This document shows, piece by piece, positions 28,655-43,537 of a stretch of DNA of 43,633 bases. The stretch spans positions 18,149-61,781 of the forward strand of contig CAKKRC010000062.1 of the NCBI GenBank assembly GCA_919902495.1, read 5' to 3'. Source of the stretch: Nitrospiria bacterium (lineage in GTDB: Bacteria; Nitrospirota; UBA9217). The position numbers and the translations under genes were made by a program. The notes beneath the pieces are model-generated. The model saw only the letters and a list, made by a program, of their open reading frames with translations, ran no database searches and was not told the origin of the DNA. How positions within the stretch are numbered: position 1 is the stretch's first letter; the number at the start of each line of letters is the position of its first letter.

Positions 28655-28680
28655 ATTCATTAACCTGAATGGAGAGCTTT

Positions 28681-30078
<1,398 letters not shown>

Positions 30079-30151
30079 GCGGGCTGGTATCAGCGTAACC
30101 TTGCGGCGGGGGCGGAACATTTCAATCCCCGCTTGACTTATTGGTTGCTAA

Positions 30152-31417
<1,266 letters not shown>

Positions 31418-36502: not shown

Positions 36503-38203
36503 ATGTCGAAAAGAATCGTCATAGATCCAATCACCAGGATCGAAGGCCATCTGCGCATCGAGTGCGAAGTGGAGAACGGAAAGGTCAGCAAGGCCTGGAC
36601 GTCCGGCCAGATGTGGCGCGGGATCGAGAACATCGTGAAGGGCAGGGATGCCCGCGAGGTCTGGCTCTTCACCCAACGGATCTGCGGGGTTTGAACGTCC
36701 GTTCACGCACTGACCTCGGTGAGGTCGGTTGAGAACGCCCTGCAGCTCGAAATACCGCTGAACGCGCAGTATATCCGGAACCTGATCATGGCGGCCCATG
36801 GCGTACATGACCATATCGTGCATTTCTACCACCTGGCAGCCCTCGACTGGGTGGACATTGTCTCGGCCCTGAAGGCCGATCCCAAGAAAGCGTCGGCGCT
36901 CGGTGAGAGCCTTTCGAACTGGGACCAGAACAGCGCCAAGCACATGAAGGAAGTGCAGGACCGGCTGGGCACCTTCGTGAAGAGCGGTCAGCTCGGCATC
37001 TATGCGAACGGCTACTGGGGCCATCCGGCCATGAAACTGCCGCCCGAGGTGAACCTCCTTGCCGCGGCGCATTACCTTCAGGCGCTTCATTACCAGCGCA
37101 GGATCAACATGGTGGTGTCCATTCTTGGCTCCAAGACGCCGAACATTCAGAACCTGGCTGTGGGCGGCGTGGCGAACGCGATCAACCCGGACAATCAGTC
37201 GGCGCTCAACATGGAACGGCTCTACTACATCAAGACGCTCATCGACGAGGTCCAGAGCTTCGTGAGGAACGCGATGCTTGTCGATGTCGCCGCCGTGGCG
37301 GCCTTGTATGCTGATTGGACCGGACACGGCAAAGGCGTTACGAACTATCTTTCGGCTCCTGATATGCCTATGGATACGAAGGGAACCGCTTTCGCGCTGC
37401 CGGGCGGTTACATCGAGAACGGGGATTTCGCTACGTTCAAGCCGATCAAGAGCTTTAATGATGAATACTTCAAAAATGGTGTGAAGGAGAGCATCAAACA
37501 CTCCTGGTACAAGGGTGACTGGAACAAGCATCCTTTTGAAGAGACGACGGACCCGAACCATACAGGCATGCAGTACGACGGGAAATATTCCTGGGTCAAG
37601 GCGCCGACGTTCAACGGCAAACCTGCCCAGGTCGGTCCGCTTGCCAACGTGCTGTGCATGTATGCCGCAGGCCACGCCGGGACCAAGAAGTATGTCACCG
37701 ATATGCTGAATACCATAAGCGCGGTCGCCAAGACAAAGGTCGGGCCGGCAGCGCTGCACTCGACCATCGGACGCATCGGCGCCCGGGCTGTCCGTTGCGC
37801 GGTGCTGTTGGATGAGTGCACGAACCAGTGGAACGCGCTGGTCGCCAACATCGGCAAGGGCGATGTAAAGACCTTCAATGCGCCCAAGTTCCCGAGCGGC
37901 GAGATCCGGGGCGTGGGTTTCCACGAAGCGCCGAGAGGCATCCTGTCGCACTGGGCGGTCATTGACGGCGGCAAGATCAAGAACTATCAGTGCGTTGTTC
38001 CGTCCACCTGGAACGCGGCCCCGCGGAACGGAAGCGATCAGCCCGGCCCGTACGAGGCCTCGCTGGTCGGCACGCCGCTGGCCGATCCGGAAAAGCCCCT
38101 GGAAGTCCTCCGGACCGTGCATTCTTTCGACCCTTGTCTGGCCTGCGCTGTTCACCTGGTCGATGCAAAAGGGAGAGATATCATCACGGTGAAGGCCCTG
38201 TAA
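36503..38203 (+). CDS. hybL: [NiFe] hydrogenase large subunit with in-frame TGA (probable selenocysteine)
   Basis: It holds the NiFe active site. The frame opens at ATG 36503 (ribosome site AAGGAGA). It runs MSKRIVIDPITRIEGHLRIE...FTQRICGV, meets TGA at 36692-36694 (codon 64), and goes on without any shift as TSVHALTSVRSVENALQ to TAA 38203, 566 codons in all, the usual size of HybC. The TGA replaces the second Cys of the N-terminal ligand motif RxCGxCxxxH. The first Cys61 and the whole C-terminal motif DPCLACAVH (Cys545, Cys548, His551) are intact. The 15-residue tail removed by the maturation protease (LVDAKGRDIITVKAL) is also intact. Everything else is conserved, so recoding as selenocysteine is the best reading. 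Alternatives are a recent nonsense mutation or a base-call error. Confidence 0.93.
36692..36694 (+). other. In-frame TGA read as selenocysteine (residue 64)
   Basis: TGA between GGG GTT and ACG TCC, at the position of the bridging Cys (equivalent of Cys68 in Desulfovibrio gigas HynA). The same frame is fully conserved on both sides. Confidence 0.72.
36709..36729 (+). promoter_or_regulatory. Candidate bacterial SECIS element in hybL
   Basis: The hairpin ACTGACCTC-GGT-GAGGTCGGT has nine pairs (one T-G). It starts 15 nt after the TGA, with its loop 24 nt after it. The loop GGU carries the guanine and uridine that SelB recognises in bacterial SECIS elements. Confidence 0.65.
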
Positions 38204-38226: not shown

Positions 38227-38267
38227 AGCCCTCTTGCCCCATCGTTCGGAGGCGGAGGGCTTTTTTT
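38227..38267 (+). terminator. Intrinsic terminator between hybL and hybP
   Basis: AGCCCTC/GAGGGCT stem with a 21-nt loop and seven T. It separates structural genes from maturation genes and probably reduces, not stops, downstream transcription, as no promoter is evident after it. Confidence 0.72.
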
Positions 38268-38284
38268 ATGTCCAGGAGACACGT

Positions 38285-38788
38285 ATGCATTTGAAGGAAC
38301 CAACGATTTCGATCATAGGGCTCGGCAACATCCTCATGACCGATGAAGGGGTCGGCGTACACGCAGTGAACGAGTTCGAGCGGCGATACACGGTCCCCGA
38401 GCATGTTGAGATCGTCGATGGCGGTGCAGCGGGGCTCGATCTGATACCGTTCATCGAGGGAAGGGAGAAGGTCCTGATGGTCGATGCCGTCAATTTCGAT
38501 CAAGATCCGGGATACATTGGTGAACTGGAAAATGACGCAATTCCCGCGCGGATTACCCAGAAGGCCTCCATGCACCATCTGGGGCTCATGGACGTCCTCT
38601 GTATTGTGCGCATGTCAGGAAACATACCCAAGGAACTCTGTATCATCGGCATCCAGCCGAAGAGCCTCGAACTCGGTCTTGACATGACCCCGGAGATATG
38701 GGATAAAAAAGATATCCTTATCGAGCGTATCGTATCAAAGCTTAAGGAATGGAACATACCATGTGCCTTGCGGTCCCCTCAAAAGTAA
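38285..38788 (+). CDS. hybP: Hydrogenase maturation protease (HybD type)
   Basis: A 167-residue endopeptidase that removes the C-terminal tail of the large subunit after nickel insertion. The family motifs are ISIIGLGNILMTDEGVGVHA (the metal-sensing Glu16-equivalent in DEG), VDGGAAGLDLIPFIEG and MVDAVNFD. ATG 38285 has CAGGAGA upstream; the longer frame to 38234 lies within the terminator hairpin. The 3' end overlaps hypC by 28 nt. The name follows Geobacter hybP. Confidence 0.92.
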   Translation: MHLKEPTISIIGLGNILMTDEGVGVHAVNEFERRYTVPEHVEIVDGGAAGLDLIPFIEGREKVLMVDAVNFDQDPGYIGELENDAIPARITQKASMHHLGLMDVLCIVRMSGNIPKELCIIGIQPKSLELGLDMTPEIWDKKDILIERIVSKLKEWNIPCALRSPQK

Positions 38789-39300
38789 TTTCCATCGATA
38801 ACGATATCGCGATGATCGATGTGTATGGAGCCCGGAAAGAAGTGAATATCATGCTGCTTCCCGAACCGCCGCAGCTTGGCGATTTTGTCCTGGTCCATGC
38901 AGGTTTCGCGATCCAGTCGATCAAGGCAGAGGCATTCAAGACAGGTGAGATCATGCATGAATCATCCATTGCACACAGCATCATAGAGATCATTGACGAA
39001 CAGTGTGCCGAACAGGGCTGCACAACGGTCGATGCGCTGACGGTCCGGCTCGGCAAGGCGACCGGGGTCATGCCCGAATCGCTCCAATTCGCCTTCGATG
39101 CATTGAAGGAACCGACGAAAGCGAAGAACGCCAGGCTCACGATCGAGATCGTTCCGGTCGGGGGAACCTGCAATAGCTGTAAAAAGGAGTTCGACGAGAA
39201 AGAAGTCCCTTATGTCTTTGCATGTCCTCACTGCGGTTCGAATGATTTTGAGATAACCCGTGGACGGGAGATGGAGATCTCGGATATGGAGATGCACTAG
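38761..39300 (+). CDS. hypC: HypC-HypA fusion, hydrogenase maturation
   Basis: One uninterrupted frame of 179 residues. Residues 1-64 are HypC: MCLAVPSKVISIDNDIAMID and QLGDFVLVHAGFAIQSIKAE, with the essential Cys2 that carries the Fe(CN)2CO group with HypD. Residues 65-179 are HypA: MHESSIAHSIIEIIDEQ, with a zinc site CNSCKK...CPHCG, the nickel-delivery protein. HypC is short and lacks its usual C-terminal helix. ATG 38761 is chosen because HypC needs Met-Cys at its N-terminus; ATG 38749 would add EHT. An internal ATG at 38953 has AGGTGA 4 nt before it, so free HypA may also be made. See the separate finding. Confidence 0.9.
   Translation: MCLAVPSKVISIDNDIAMIDVYGARKEVNIMLLPEPPQLGDFVLVHAGFAIQSIKAEAFKTGEIMHESSIAHSIIEIIDEQCAEQGCTTVDALTVRLGKATGVMPESLQFAFDALKEPTKAKNARLTIEIVPVGGTCNSCKKEFDEKEVPYVFACPHCGSNDFEITRGREMEISDMEMH
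38943..38955 (+). promoter_or_regulatory. Internal ribosome site for free HypA
   Basis: AGGTGA (38943-38948) ends 4 nt before ATG 38953, which begins Met-His-Glu, the exact nickel-binding N-terminus of HypA. Confidence 0.6.
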
Positions 39301-39366: not shown

Positions 39367-40014
39367 TTGAAAGTTAAGGTCGTGTCAAGGATCCTCGAAG
39401 CGAACGACAGGATAGCCGAGGAGAACAGAAAGAGGTTCAAGGAAGCGGGGGTGTTCGTCGCGAACCTGATGGGCGCTCCGGGCGCGGGGAAGACGACGCT
39501 GCTTGAGGAGACCATCAAACGGCTCAAGCCGCATCTGCGTATCGGGGTCATCGAAGGCGACATCGTCGGCCAGGACGACGCGGATCGGATCGGCGCGCTC
39601 GATATCCCTGTTGTCCAGATCAACACCGGCGGCGCTTGCCACCTTGACGCGAACATGATCAATGAGGTCCTCGATGAACTGCCGCTCAAACAGCTCGACA
39701 TGGTCATTATCGAGAACGTCGGCAACCTCGTTTGTCCGGCCGAATTCAAGGTCGGTGAGGACATAAAACTGATGGTGCTTTCAGTCGCGGAGGGTCACGA
39801 CAAGCCGCTCAAATACCCCCTTATGTTCCAGCAGTCATCAGGACTGGTGCTGAACAAGATCGATCTGCTTCCGTACGTCAAGGTTGACATCAATAAAATG
39901 AGGAGCGATTCCCTTGCGTTGAACCCGAAGCTCAAGGTCTTCGAGGTATCATGCTCTTCCGGGGCGGGGATCGATGCGTGGGCTCAATGGCTGAACGGGC
40001 TCAGATCGCAGTAA
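39367..40014 (+). CDS. hypB: HypB, GTPase for nickel insertion
   Basis: A 215-residue G3E GTPase that drives nickel delivery from HypA. P-loop GAPGAGKTT (about 37-45), GVIEGDIVGQDDADRI, GGACHLDANM with the metal-binding Cys-His, IIENVGNLVCPAEF and the guanine motif LNKIDLLP. The N-terminal His-rich nickel-storage stretch of some relatives is absent. The start is TTG 39367 with GGAG 8 nt upstream; no ATG precedes the P-loop at a suitable distance. The 3' end overlaps hypF by 28 nt. Confidence 0.96.
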   Translation: MKVKVVSRILEANDRIAEENRKRFKEAGVFVANLMGAPGAGKTTLLEETIKRLKPHLRIGVIEGDIVGQDDADRIGALDIPVVQINTGGACHLDANMINEVLDELPLKQLDMVIIENVGNLVCPAEFKVGEDIKLMVLSVAEGHDKPLKYPLMFQQSSGLVLNKIDLLPYVKVDINKMRSDSLALNPKLKVFEVSCSSGAGIDAWAQWLNGLRSQ

Positions 40015-42398
40015 AAGGGACCGTCCAGGGCGTCGGTTTCCGTCCATACGTCTATACCCTTGCGACCAGCCTCGGGTTGGCCGGATACGTTTCCAATAAC
40101 GCGGGCGGCGTTCACATCGACATTGAAGGCGCGTCGGTCTCCGAATTTATCCGGCGGTTGCCCGTAGAGGCGCCGCCGCTATCCCATATCGCCGATATTT
40201 CCGTCACGCCGCTCCCCATCCATGGATATACAGGATTCACGATCCAGGCAAGCAGTGACCACGCCGGCAACTATCCCTTCACGCTCATTTCCTCCGATGT
40301 TTCTGTCTGTCCTGATTGCCTTCAGGAAATGAACGACCCGAGCGACCGTCGATACCGCTATCCATTCATAAACTGCACGAACTGCGGGCCCCGCTATACC
40401 ATTACCCGGGCAGTCCCCTATGACCGGCCGAACACGACCATGGCGGGCTTCCCTCTGTGCACGGAATGTTCGCGGGAATACCATGATCCGCGTGATCGGC
40501 GGTTCCATGCACAGCCCATTGCATGTCCGGTGTGTGGACCGGAAATCGAGTTTCACGTGCGGAGCAGTGCGGAGTGCGGAGTGAAGGGGACCGAGGCGTT
40601 AGAGTCCTGTATCAAGGCATTGCGCGAAGGCGGCATCGTGGCGATCAAGGGGTTGGGCGGCTTTCATATTGCCTGCGATGCCTTGGATCATCATGCAGTT
40701 GCGGCGCTGCGGGAACGAAAGCGGAGGAGCAACAAACCGTTCGCTGTCATGGCAGCTTCGGTCGAGGTGCTGCAGGGATTTTGCGAAGTTGGCCGTGAGG
40801 AACAGGAGCTGCTCGAATCGGCAAAGCGGCCGATCGTTCTGCTCAGGAAGAAACAACCGGAGGCGGTCCTCGATCCTCTTTCCGGTGACGTAGCGCCGAA
40901 CAATCTTTATATAGGATGTATGCTGCCGTACACTCCATTGCATTCACTCTTGTTCACAGCAGGAGATAAGGAACACGATACGGGATCACGAACATTGTCC
41001 GTGCTGGTCATGACGAGCGGTAACCTGTCAGAAGAACCGATCGTTCACAGGAATGTGGATGCGATACAGAAGCTTTCGGGCCTCGTCGATGCGTTCCTGA
41101 CCCATAACAGGGATATCTTCATGAGGGTCGACGACTCTGTGGTACGGATTGCGGATTGCGGATTGAGGAGTAAGGATTATAAAAAAAGAACAGATAAATC
41201 AGGAATCCGAAATACGAAATTCAATATTTCTTTTCTACGCCGAGCGCGCGGATACGCGCCTGAAGCGATCGTACTTCAAGATACCGGGCCCGAGGTCCTC
41301 GGCTGCGGCGCAGACCTCAAGAATACGTTTACCGTCACCAAGGGATCGTTCGCCATTCCCAGCCAGCACATCGGGGATATGGAGAATTACGAGACCTTGG
41401 AGTTCTACGAAGAGTGCCTCGCAAATCTCAAACAAGTCTATCGTGTGGAGCCGGTTGCCATAGTACACGACCTGCATCCCGGCTATCTTTCTACGCGGTG
41501 GGCCGTGGAAGAGGGGTCAAGGTGCAAACTCCCGCTTTTCCCGATCCAGCATCATTATGCCCATATCGGGTCCGTTATGGCCGAACACGGACTTACGGAA
41601 AAGGTCATCGGTGTTGCTTTCGACGGGACCGGGTACGGCACTGACGGGAACCTGTGGGGAGGTGAGTTTCTGATCGCCGGTATTGAAGGTTTCGATCGAG
41701 CTGGACAGTTCAAGTACATCCCGCTTCCGGGCGGTGAGGCCGCGATCAGAGAACCCTGGAGAACGGCAGTAAGCTATGTAGCTGATGCAGATGAAACTCG
41801 GGCAGCAGACCGGCTTGCTTCGATCGGATTTCTGGAAAGACATGGACAGGCATCCGTCGAACAGGTCCTGAAGATAGCGGATTCGAAGGACCTTTCACCG
41901 CTCTCATCCGGTGCCGGAAGATTGTTCGATGCCGTATCGGCCATACTCGGGGTCTGCGACCGCAACACCTTTGAAGGTGAGGCTGCCATTGCATTGGAGG
42001 CGCTGACGGTCGAAGGAATTGATGGCGAGTATCCGATTGTTTTAACAAAGAATAATGGGTATACTGTTATCGATTTTTGTAATGTTATTCAGGCGATGAT
42101 CGATGACTTCGTGAATAAAGAACCAAAGCCCGTAATTGCGACGCGCTTCCATAATACGATCGCTTCGGCCATCAGCTTGCTGGTGAAGGGCATCCGTGAT
42201 CGGACCGGGATCCTGGACGTGGCCTTGAGCGGCGGAACCTTCCAGAACAGATATTTGCTCGCCCGGACAGTCGCTCTGCTCACAACTGACGGTATGCGGG
42301 TCCATACCAACTCGCAGATGCCTCCCAATGACGCGTGCATTTCGCTCGGCCAGGCATATCTTGTCCGGGAGAGGCTACAGAAGTGCGGAGTGCGCTAG
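39987..42398 (+). CDS. hypF: HypF carbamoyltransferase with repeat-derived insertions
   Basis: An 803-residue protein (relatives are about 750-780) that makes the cyanide ligands with HypE. It has acylphosphatase (1-90, VQGVGFRPYV), two zinc fingers (CPDCLQEM...CTNCGP and CTECSREY...CPVCGP), a YrdC domain (GGIVAIKGLGGFHIACDALD) and a Kae1-like domain (QHHYAHIGSVMAEHG, AFDGTGYGTDGNLWGGEFL, ALSGGTFQNRYLL). Two stretches do not belong to the family: RSSAECGVKG (about 191-200) and RIADCGLRSKDYKKRTDKSG onward (about 388-417), just before FLRRARGYAP. Both coincide with dispersed repeats R2 and R3. The last residues (QKCGVR) come from another R2 copy. ATG 39987 lies inside hypB. Confidence 0.93.
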   Translation: MAERAQIAVKGTVQGVGFRPYVYTLATSLGLAGYVSNNAGGVHIDIEGASVSEFIRRLPVEAPPLSHIADISVTPLPIHGYTGFTIQASSDHAGNYPFTLISSDVSVCPDCLQEMNDPSDRRYRYPFINCTNCGPRYTITRAVPYDRPNTTMAGFPLCTECSREYHDPRDRRFHAQPIACPVCGPEIEFHVRSSAECGVKGTEALESCIKALREGGIVAIKGLGGFHIACDALDHHAVAALRERKRRSNKPFAVMAASVEVLQGFCEVGREEQELLESAKRPIVLLRKKQPEAVLDPLSGDVAPNNLYIGCMLPYTPLHSLLFTAGDKEHDTGSRTLSVLVMTSGNLSEEPIVHRNVDAIQKLSGLVDAFLTHNRDIFMRVDDSVVRIADCGLRSKDYKKRTDKSGIRNTKFNISFLRRARGYAPEAIVLQDTGPEVLGCGADLKNTFTVTKGSFAIPSQHIGDMENYETLEFYEECLANLKQVYRVEPVAIVHDLHPGYLSTRWAVEEGSRCKLPLFPIQHHYAHIGSVMAEHGLTEKVIGVAFDGTGYGTDGNLWGGEFLIAGIEGFDRAGQFKYIPLPGGEAAIREPWRTAVSYVADADETRAADRLASIGFLERHGQASVEQVLKIADSKDLSPLSSGAGRLFDAVSAILGVCDRNTFEGEAAIALEALTVEGIDGEYPIVLTKNNGYTVIDFCNVIQAMIDDFVNKEPKPVIATRFHNTIASAISLLVKGIRDRTGILDVALSGGTFQNRYLLARTVALLTTDGMRVHTNSQMPPNDACISLGQAYLVRERLQKCGVR
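40558..40583. repeat. R2 repeat inside hypF
   Basis: TGCGGAGCAGTGCGGAGTGC followed by GGAGTG. The same words are at 16562-16578, 42382-42394 and 42464-42477. It is read in frame as RSSAECGV. Confidence 0.75.
41149..41238. repeat. R3 repeat inserted in frame in hypF
   Basis: ACGGATTGCGGATTGCGGAT at the left end and GGAATCCGAAATACGAAATT toward the right, about 90 nt that keep the frame open and add about 30 residues. Confidence 0.72.
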
Positions 42399-42478
42399 AC
42401 ATGACCCTCACCCCTGCCCCTCCCCCCTGGAGGGAGAGGGAAAAAGGAGAGGGGGCTTTTCAACGCGGAGTGCGGAAT
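42382..42478. repeat. R2 copies and a GGAGGGAGAGGG hairpin at the hypF-hypD junction
   Basis: AGTGCGGAGTGCG supplies the last hypF codons. The 80-nt spacer has CCCCTCCCCCCTGGAGGGAG, able to fold on itself. A second R2 copy, GCGGAGTGCGGAAT (42465-42478), lies directly before the hypD ATG and supplies its purine-rich ribosome site. Confidence 0.65.
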
Positions 42479-43537
42479 ATGAAACAGCATATCGATGAAA
42501 TAAACAAGCTGATGATCGGGATCAGCAGGCCGGTGAAACTCATGGAGGTCTGCGGGACCCATACGGTCGAGATCTTCCGGCACGGGATACGTTCCATCAT
42601 ACCGGGCACGATCACTCTCCTGAGCGGCCCTGGGTGCCCGGTGTGCGTCACCTCCATACGGGACGTCGATGCCGCGATCTCGATCGCGAAGCAGCCGAAC
42701 ACGGTCCTGGTGACCTTCGGGGACATGATGCGGGTGCCGGGAGGGAAACGGTCGCTCATGGATGCGCGGTCCGAAGGCGCGGATGTCCGGGTGATGTACT
42801 CGCCCATGGACGCCCTGAAGCTCGCACAGGAGGATGGTTCGAAACAGATCGTGTTCTTCGCCACGGGATTTGAAACGACATCTCCGCTGATAGCCGGTAC
42901 TGTCTTTGCCGCGTTTCAAAAGAAGGTAAGAAACTTCACCATTCTATCATCTCACAAGACGGTCCCCCTTGCTCTCAAGGCGCTCCTCGACGCGCCCGAC
43001 GTCCGCGTGGACGGGTTCATTCTTCCTGGACACGTGAGCACGATCATCGGCCTCGCTCCCTACGAATTTGTCGCGAAGAACTACCGGAAACCCGCTGTCG
43101 TGACCGGTTTCGAGGCAGGTGAGATCATCGAGGGCATCCTGATGATCATACGTCAGATCGCCAAGGGGGAGGCGAAGGTGGAGAACGCCTATCCCACGGT
43201 CGTCAGGCCGGAAGGGAACCCACGGGCTGTCGAGATATTGAACGACATATTCGAACCCTCAGACGCTTATTGGCGCGGGATCGGGGTCCTGCCGGGAACC
43301 GGCCTGAAGCTGCGGGAGAAATATCGGGAGTTCGATGCGGAAGCGCGATTCCACCCCGAGTCAACAGGGATAGCCGAGCCGGAGCTGTGCTCGTGCGGTG
43401 ATATATTGCGGGGGGTCAAGGTACCGACGGAATGTCCGCTCTTCGGAACAGGCTGCACCCCCGACAGTCCTGTCGGACCCTGCATGGTCAGCACGGAAGG
43501 CAGTTGTTCGGCCTATTTCAAATACGGACACCGATGA
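42479..43537 (+). CDS. hypD: HypD, Fe(CN)2CO assembly protein
   Basis: A 352-residue iron-sulfur protein that with HypC builds the Fe(CN)2CO unit. It contains VCGTHTVEIFRHGIRSIIPG, LLSGPGCPVCVTSI (active-site Cys pair), FATGFETTSPLIAG, GFILPGHVSTIIG and the C-terminal [4Fe-4S] ligands in CSCGDILRGVKVPTECPLFG and GTCTPDSP-like GTGCTPDSPVGPC. ATG 42479 is chosen by homology; the longer upstream frame runs through repeat DNA. hypE, normally next, is not in the window and may follow. Confidence 0.96.
   Translation: MKQHIDEINKLMIGISRPVKLMEVCGTHTVEIFRHGIRSIIPGTITLLSGPGCPVCVTSIRDVDAAISIAKQPNTVLVTFGDMMRVPGGKRSLMDARSEGADVRVMYSPMDALKLAQEDGSKQIVFFATGFETTSPLIAGTVFAAFQKKVRNFTILSSHKTVPLALKALLDAPDVRVDGFILPGHVSTIIGLAPYEFVAKNYRKPAVVTGFEAGEIIEGILMIIRQIAKGEAKVENAYPTVVRPEGNPRAVEILNDIFEPSDAYWRGIGVLPGTGLKLREKYREFDAEARFHPESTGIAEPELCSCGDILRGVKVPTECPLFGTGCTPDSPVGPCMVSTEGSCSAYFKYGHR

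Follow-up and report, generated by a model that had tools for sequence, protein, structure and literature searches.

In one family of Nitrospirota, the [NiFe]-hydrogenase maturation chaperones HypC and HypA are encoded by a single open reading frame. The fusion is real and established, and is not an error. HypC and HypA are known families, and it is their joined arrangement that is new, as far as the literature searched shows. No description of a HypC–HypA fusion was found in that literature, which covered few subscription papers, and such an absence is not proof. The gene lies in a window of 43,633 nucleotides, the whole stretch of DNA analysed here, from a Nitrospiria bacterium (GTDB lineage Nitrospirota; UBA9217).

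HypC and HypA share one reading frame

The open reading frame at 38761–39300 of the forward strand encodes a 179-residue protein in which HypC (residues 1–64) runs into a complete HypA (residues 65–179) with no stop between them. Its translation reads MCLAVPSK…FKTGEIMHESSIAHS…DMEMH up to the stop codon, with zero internal stops. The Pfam HypC profile matches residues 1–59 at 77.4 bits (cut-off 28.5), and the HypA profile matches residues 65–178 at 113.7 bits (cut-off 28.9), with positions 1–112 of its 112 covered. Both NCBIfam cut-offs are also passed (TIGR00074, 68.4 vs 48; TIGR00100, 93.4 vs 88.1). The translation and the profile matches bear out the first-pass annotation, which had placed HypC and HypA in one frame without a stop. 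It had also described the 64-residue HypC part as short of its C-terminal helix, and comparison with the free HypCs of the phylum agrees. These are 74–89 aa long and end in a helical tail of 15–25 residues, which is absent from the fusion, where the HypC part ends at about residue 60.

The C-terminal tail is no strict requirement of HypC, as the tail-less fusion still passes the family profile. HypC chains in the HypCDE complex of the PDB comprise only 52–54 residues, so HypCDE may be able to do without the tail that the fusion lacks. The HypC paralogue HupF tolerates loss of a 24-residue C-terminal extension at very low oxygen, a region that HypC lacks (PMC3534401), and a C-terminal Strep-tag on HypC is tolerated (PMC9002611).

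Judged from the sequences, the residues required of HypC and those required of HypA are both kept in the fusion. With the HypC/HybG/HupF family (PF01455, TIGR00074) it shares the MC(L)A(V/I)P start, here MCLAVP at 38761, and the GD-VLVHAGFA motif, and its His46 matches E. coli His51. It differs from that family in having no C-terminal helix and in continuing into HypA. With the HypA metallochaperones (PF01155, TIGR00100) it shares a full-length match, the MHE sequence and two CxxC zinc motifs, whereas its HypA is preceded in frame by HypC and the HypA methionine is internal unless separately initiated. Cys2 and His46 of the HypC part and H66, E67, C137, C140, C155 and C158 of the HypA part are invariant in all 11 fusions that we recovered.

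In an AlphaFold2 model of the protein (mean pLDDT 81.7, pTM 0.60) the HypC barrel is followed by a short helix (56–60), a coil (61–65) and then the first HypA helix. Confidence falls to a pLDDT of about 65 across residues 61–70, and the placing of the two domains relative to each other is uncertain in the model. Foldseek matched HypA and HypC structures separately and returned no fused structure, and a sequence search of the PDB found no HypC–HypA fusion.

The genes around the fusion are listed in Table 1. The protease reading frame overlaps the hypC start by 28 bases, and its real start is perhaps the ATG at 38285. Directly downstream, hypB is the next gene in 10/10 fusion loci compared. The order large subunit–protease–hypCA–hypB–hypF is kept in nine of these, and the tenth (L028) has too little upstream sequence to tell. 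Outside the family, hypC may come after the protease gene with hypA elsewhere (L014, L021).

Table 1 Features of the hypCA locus, in window positions
Feature	Position	Strand	Details
[NiFe]-hydrogenase large subunit, client of both chaperones	36503..38203	+	PF00374, 641.5 bits over 36719–38203; in-frame TGA 36692–36694
Hydrogenase maturation protease (HyaD/HycI type)	38234..38788	+	PF01750, 105 bits
hypC–hypA fusion gene, 179 aa	38761..39300	+	TAG stop 39298–39300
HypC (HupF/HypC) domain, residues 1–59	38761..38937	+	PF01455; Cys2 codon 38764–38766
Linker codons 60–64 (KTGEI)	38938..38952	+	AlphaFold2: helix 56–60, then coil 61–65, pLDDT about 65
AGGTGA, Shine-Dalgarno-like	38943..38948	+	Four bases upstream of ATG 38953; duplex -8.4 kcal/mol
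HypA domain, residues 65–179	38953..39297	+	PF01155, full length; zinc motifs C137xxC140, C155xxC158
ATG of Met65, candidate start of free HypA (115 aa)	38953..38955	+	CAT GAA (His-Glu) next
hypB (nickel GTPase partner of HypA)	39367..40014	+	PF02492, 89.1 bits
hypF	39951..42398	+	Pfam match
hypD (scaffold partner of HypC)	42335..43537	+	PF01924, 489.9 bits

The fusion is conserved across one family, with no second copy seen

A profile of the fusion was run over 396 Nitrospirota genomes. This search for the same fusion in related genomes, which the first-pass annotation had proposed, recovered it in one open frame in 11 genomes of the window's family, one copy each and six genera in all. The matches extend over residues 1–179 (1–178 in two cases) and the proteins are 58–94% identical to that of the window. 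All 11 sampled genomes of the family with either domain carry the fusion. Three further family members (G005, G006 and G009) have neither HypC nor HypA, through loss or incomplete assembly. No second HypC or HypA was found by profile in any of the 11 fusion genomes, the window's own genome included. In most other Nitrospirota families the same profile gave two separate matches, one to a free HypA and one to a free HypC, so a spare HypA or HypC in the 11 genomes would probably have been seen.

No fusion was found outside the family among the matches listed from the 396 Nitrospirota genomes and from 289 genomes of the phylum of L008. A fusion elsewhere would score high and rank first; weak cases could be missed among the matches listed. 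Matches were also obtained on 637 plasmid records, and none of them reaches 80% coverage of the query.

The junction has a constant length, with 64 codons before Met65 in the same frame in 11 distinct, separately assembled genomes. Loss of a stop through faulty sequencing or assembly has in its favour that the relatives with names are Nitrospirae metagenome-assembled genomes, and nothing further. It is refuted by these relatives, and we leave it next to no probability; error and chance are both rejected, given that 11 genomes in six genera share the open fusion. The first-pass annotation had raised the possibility of homologues in which the genes are separate and the local sequence is unchanged. 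None was found, and only a single distant genome has hypC and hypA in one frame divided by a stop. Based on six pairs of sequences, dN/dS is 0.07–0.14 for HypC and 0.03–0.10 for HypA. Thus, both halves of the fusion are under purifying selection.

A candidate internal start precedes the HypA domain

Met65-His66-Glu67 is invariant in 11/11 fusions, and Glu67 is encoded by GAA in every one. The codons before Met65 are TCA/ACA-GGT/GGA-GAG/GAA-ATC in 9/11 (once with GTT for ATC) and look like a translated Shine-Dalgarno sequence, part of which is forced by the Gly-Glu of the linker. Codon 62 is only GGT or GGA in the fusions and never GGC, which is the commonest glycine codon (46%) in the window's genes, from which codon usage was taken.

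The Shine-Dalgarno duplex before Met65 has a predicted energy of -7.4 to -10.0 kcal/mol in 9/11 sequences and of -4.3 kcal/mol in 2/11. Across the same sequences the hypC starts range from -3.3 to -7.9 kcal/mol, with -5.7 kcal/mol for that of the window. Because 5 of the 108 in-frame internal ATGs of the window have a Shine-Dalgarno sequence of at least the -8.4 kcal/mol strength seen here, and the hypC start reaches only -5.7, the motif alone is suggestive and not decisive. Synonymous random versions reach the observed strength in 8–50% of cases (per-sequence P 0.08–0.5). The two weak sequences (L029 and L030) belong to one genus, g7, in which the motif is no better than in synonymous random versions, and this makes two products less convincing as a rule without exceptions.

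Synonymous variation, corrected for amino acids, is lowest at codons 59–67 among 173 nine-codon stretches and second lowest at codons 61–67 among 175 seven-codon stretches; codons 136–142 are equally low. Folding around the internal start is weaker than the gene average in 11/11 sequences (mean z +0.9). Together, the Shine-Dalgarno sequence, the synonymous constraint and the weak folding give moderate support to an internal start that has been kept, in tests that use the same 11 related sequences and are not independent. The well-spaced AGGTGA before ATG 38953 and the Met-His-Glu that it opens, which the first-pass annotation had pointed out, are present and are conserved more strongly than the protein sequence by itself would lead one to expect.

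One gene may give two products

In the full-length product the N-terminal methionine amine of HypA is blocked, and the equivalents of His2 and Glu3 (H66, E67) are present. The concern of the first-pass annotation that this blockage matters is upheld by published work on H. pylori HypA, in which hydrogenase activity fell to 14% and urease activity to 0.1% with the L2* variant, which has one residue between Met1 and His2 (PMC5557546). As a shift of the amine by one residue has this effect, free HypA should be needed; by the same measurement, blocking the amine is not fatal. In HypAB the amine serves as a ligand of nickel (PMC7055735), and selection should favour a product with a free amine because no other HypA was seen. 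At the other end of the protein, Cys2 of HypC is essential for precursor binding (PMC12134894). The HypC–HypA order leaves this cysteine at the N-terminus, which a HypA–HypC order would not.

We consider it probable, reading from sequence, that one gene gives two products, HypC–HypA and free HypA, with a tethered hand-over, and this is the best explanation of the locus. The fusion would go back to a single event in the family's common ancestor, in which hypC, with loss of its C-terminal helix, was joined in frame immediately before the former ribosome-binding site of hypA. The linker (S/T)-G-E-I would then be translated from an apparent former hypA Shine-Dalgarno sequence, as judged from present sequences with no reconstruction. 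In the full-length product, the free Cys2 of HypC would bind HypD and hand Fe(CN)2CO to the large subunit, and HypA on the C-terminus of the fusion would place the nickel chaperone at hand as HypC leaves. Initiation at ATG 38953 would yield a normal free HypA, whose Met-His-Glu N-terminus would supply the amine required for nickel. We give an even chance to the more specific proposal that the fusion brings a HypA with a capped nickel site to the large subunit as iron is delivered and that the internal start gives free HypA, in a ratio set by translation.

The main rival to two products is a single one, in which only the full-length fusion is made and HypA holds nickel through His66 and backbone amides, perhaps with help from HypB and with no free amine. 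We regard this as unlikely, though by no means negligible. The hypC start and its Shine-Dalgarno sequence are intact (-5.7 kcal/mol in the window), the internal one is weak in one genus, L2* HypA retains its 14% of hydrogenase activity (PMC5557546), and MHE could be kept by His and Glu ligation alone. Met65 should then be free to vary, yet it is invariant, and another cause would be needed for the weak folding and the limited synonymous variation around the junction; free HypA, moreover, uses its amine in the HypAB nickel site (PMC7055735). The constraint at the DNA level would also go unexplained if the whole fusion were cut by a protease before Met65, which would free the HypA amine after translation. 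The linker is short and modelled with low confidence (pLDDT about 65, residues 61–70), and could be accessible to such cleavage. The linkers KTGEI, ESGEI, ESGKA and ESGEV hold no conserved cleavage motif, no protease of such a kind is known, and we think this route improbable.

Nickel binds only once HypC is displaced, presumably with the help of HypAB, and the hand-over from the iron step (HypC) to the nickel step (HypA, HypB) has been reviewed in these terms (PMC12134894). The existence of a natural HypC–HypA fusion, with no other copy seen in any of the 11 genomes that carry it, suggests that both chaperones can sit together on their client. It offers a ready construct for trapping HypC and HypA on the large subunit, and a natural experiment on how strongly HypA depends on its free amine. 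If the two-product reading is true, the two-output gene would tie the iron step to the nickel step as a fixed trait of the whole family.

Comparison with related gene arrangements

Some bacterial genes have an in-frame internal start with a second ribosome-binding site that yields a nested product. In hypCA, two different chaperones serving the same pathway would be produced.

The nearest thing to the fusion among the matches listed is a gene pair in another Nitrospirota family (genome G083; L073:6647–7264, reverse strand). Here hypC and hypA are adjacent in the same frame with hypF next, an in-frame near-fusion that shows how near to fusion hypC and hypA can lie. It differs from the fusion in that TAA-CGA-GGG-AAT-ATG (TAA plus three codons before the ATG) separates the genes, and in that the HypC tail is kept. 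Family f8 of the Nitrospirota (L067–L072) has a HypC-like domain (MCYAIPGK…) that continues without a break of frame into a HydE-like radical-SAM [FeFe] maturase, so that the partner is HydE and not HypA. One 926-aa frame in genome G028 combines a HypC-like domain with two radical-SAM domains and BATS domains, perhaps HydE plus HydG.

An in-frame TGA in the large subunit and other observations

The in-frame TGA of the [NiFe]-hydrogenase large subunit falls at the second cysteine of the first metal motif (RICGV-TGA-TSVH). L003–L006 share this TGA, and a cysteine codon is in its place in L007. SelB is present in the genome (383.6 bits) and a 9-bp hairpin comes after the TGA; the position of the TGA, SelB and the hairpin therefore suggest selenocysteine in the large subunit. 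Known [NiFeSe] enzymes carry selenocysteine in the C-terminal motif. The putative selenocysteine here is suggested at the residue matching C244 of E. coli HycE, which is the likely first iron acceptor (PMC12134894).

Elsewhere in the window, positions 28669–31417 of the forward strand hold a tandem of two different adenosylhomocysteinase-like genes (named from sequence only) that encode proteins of 469 and 418 aa.
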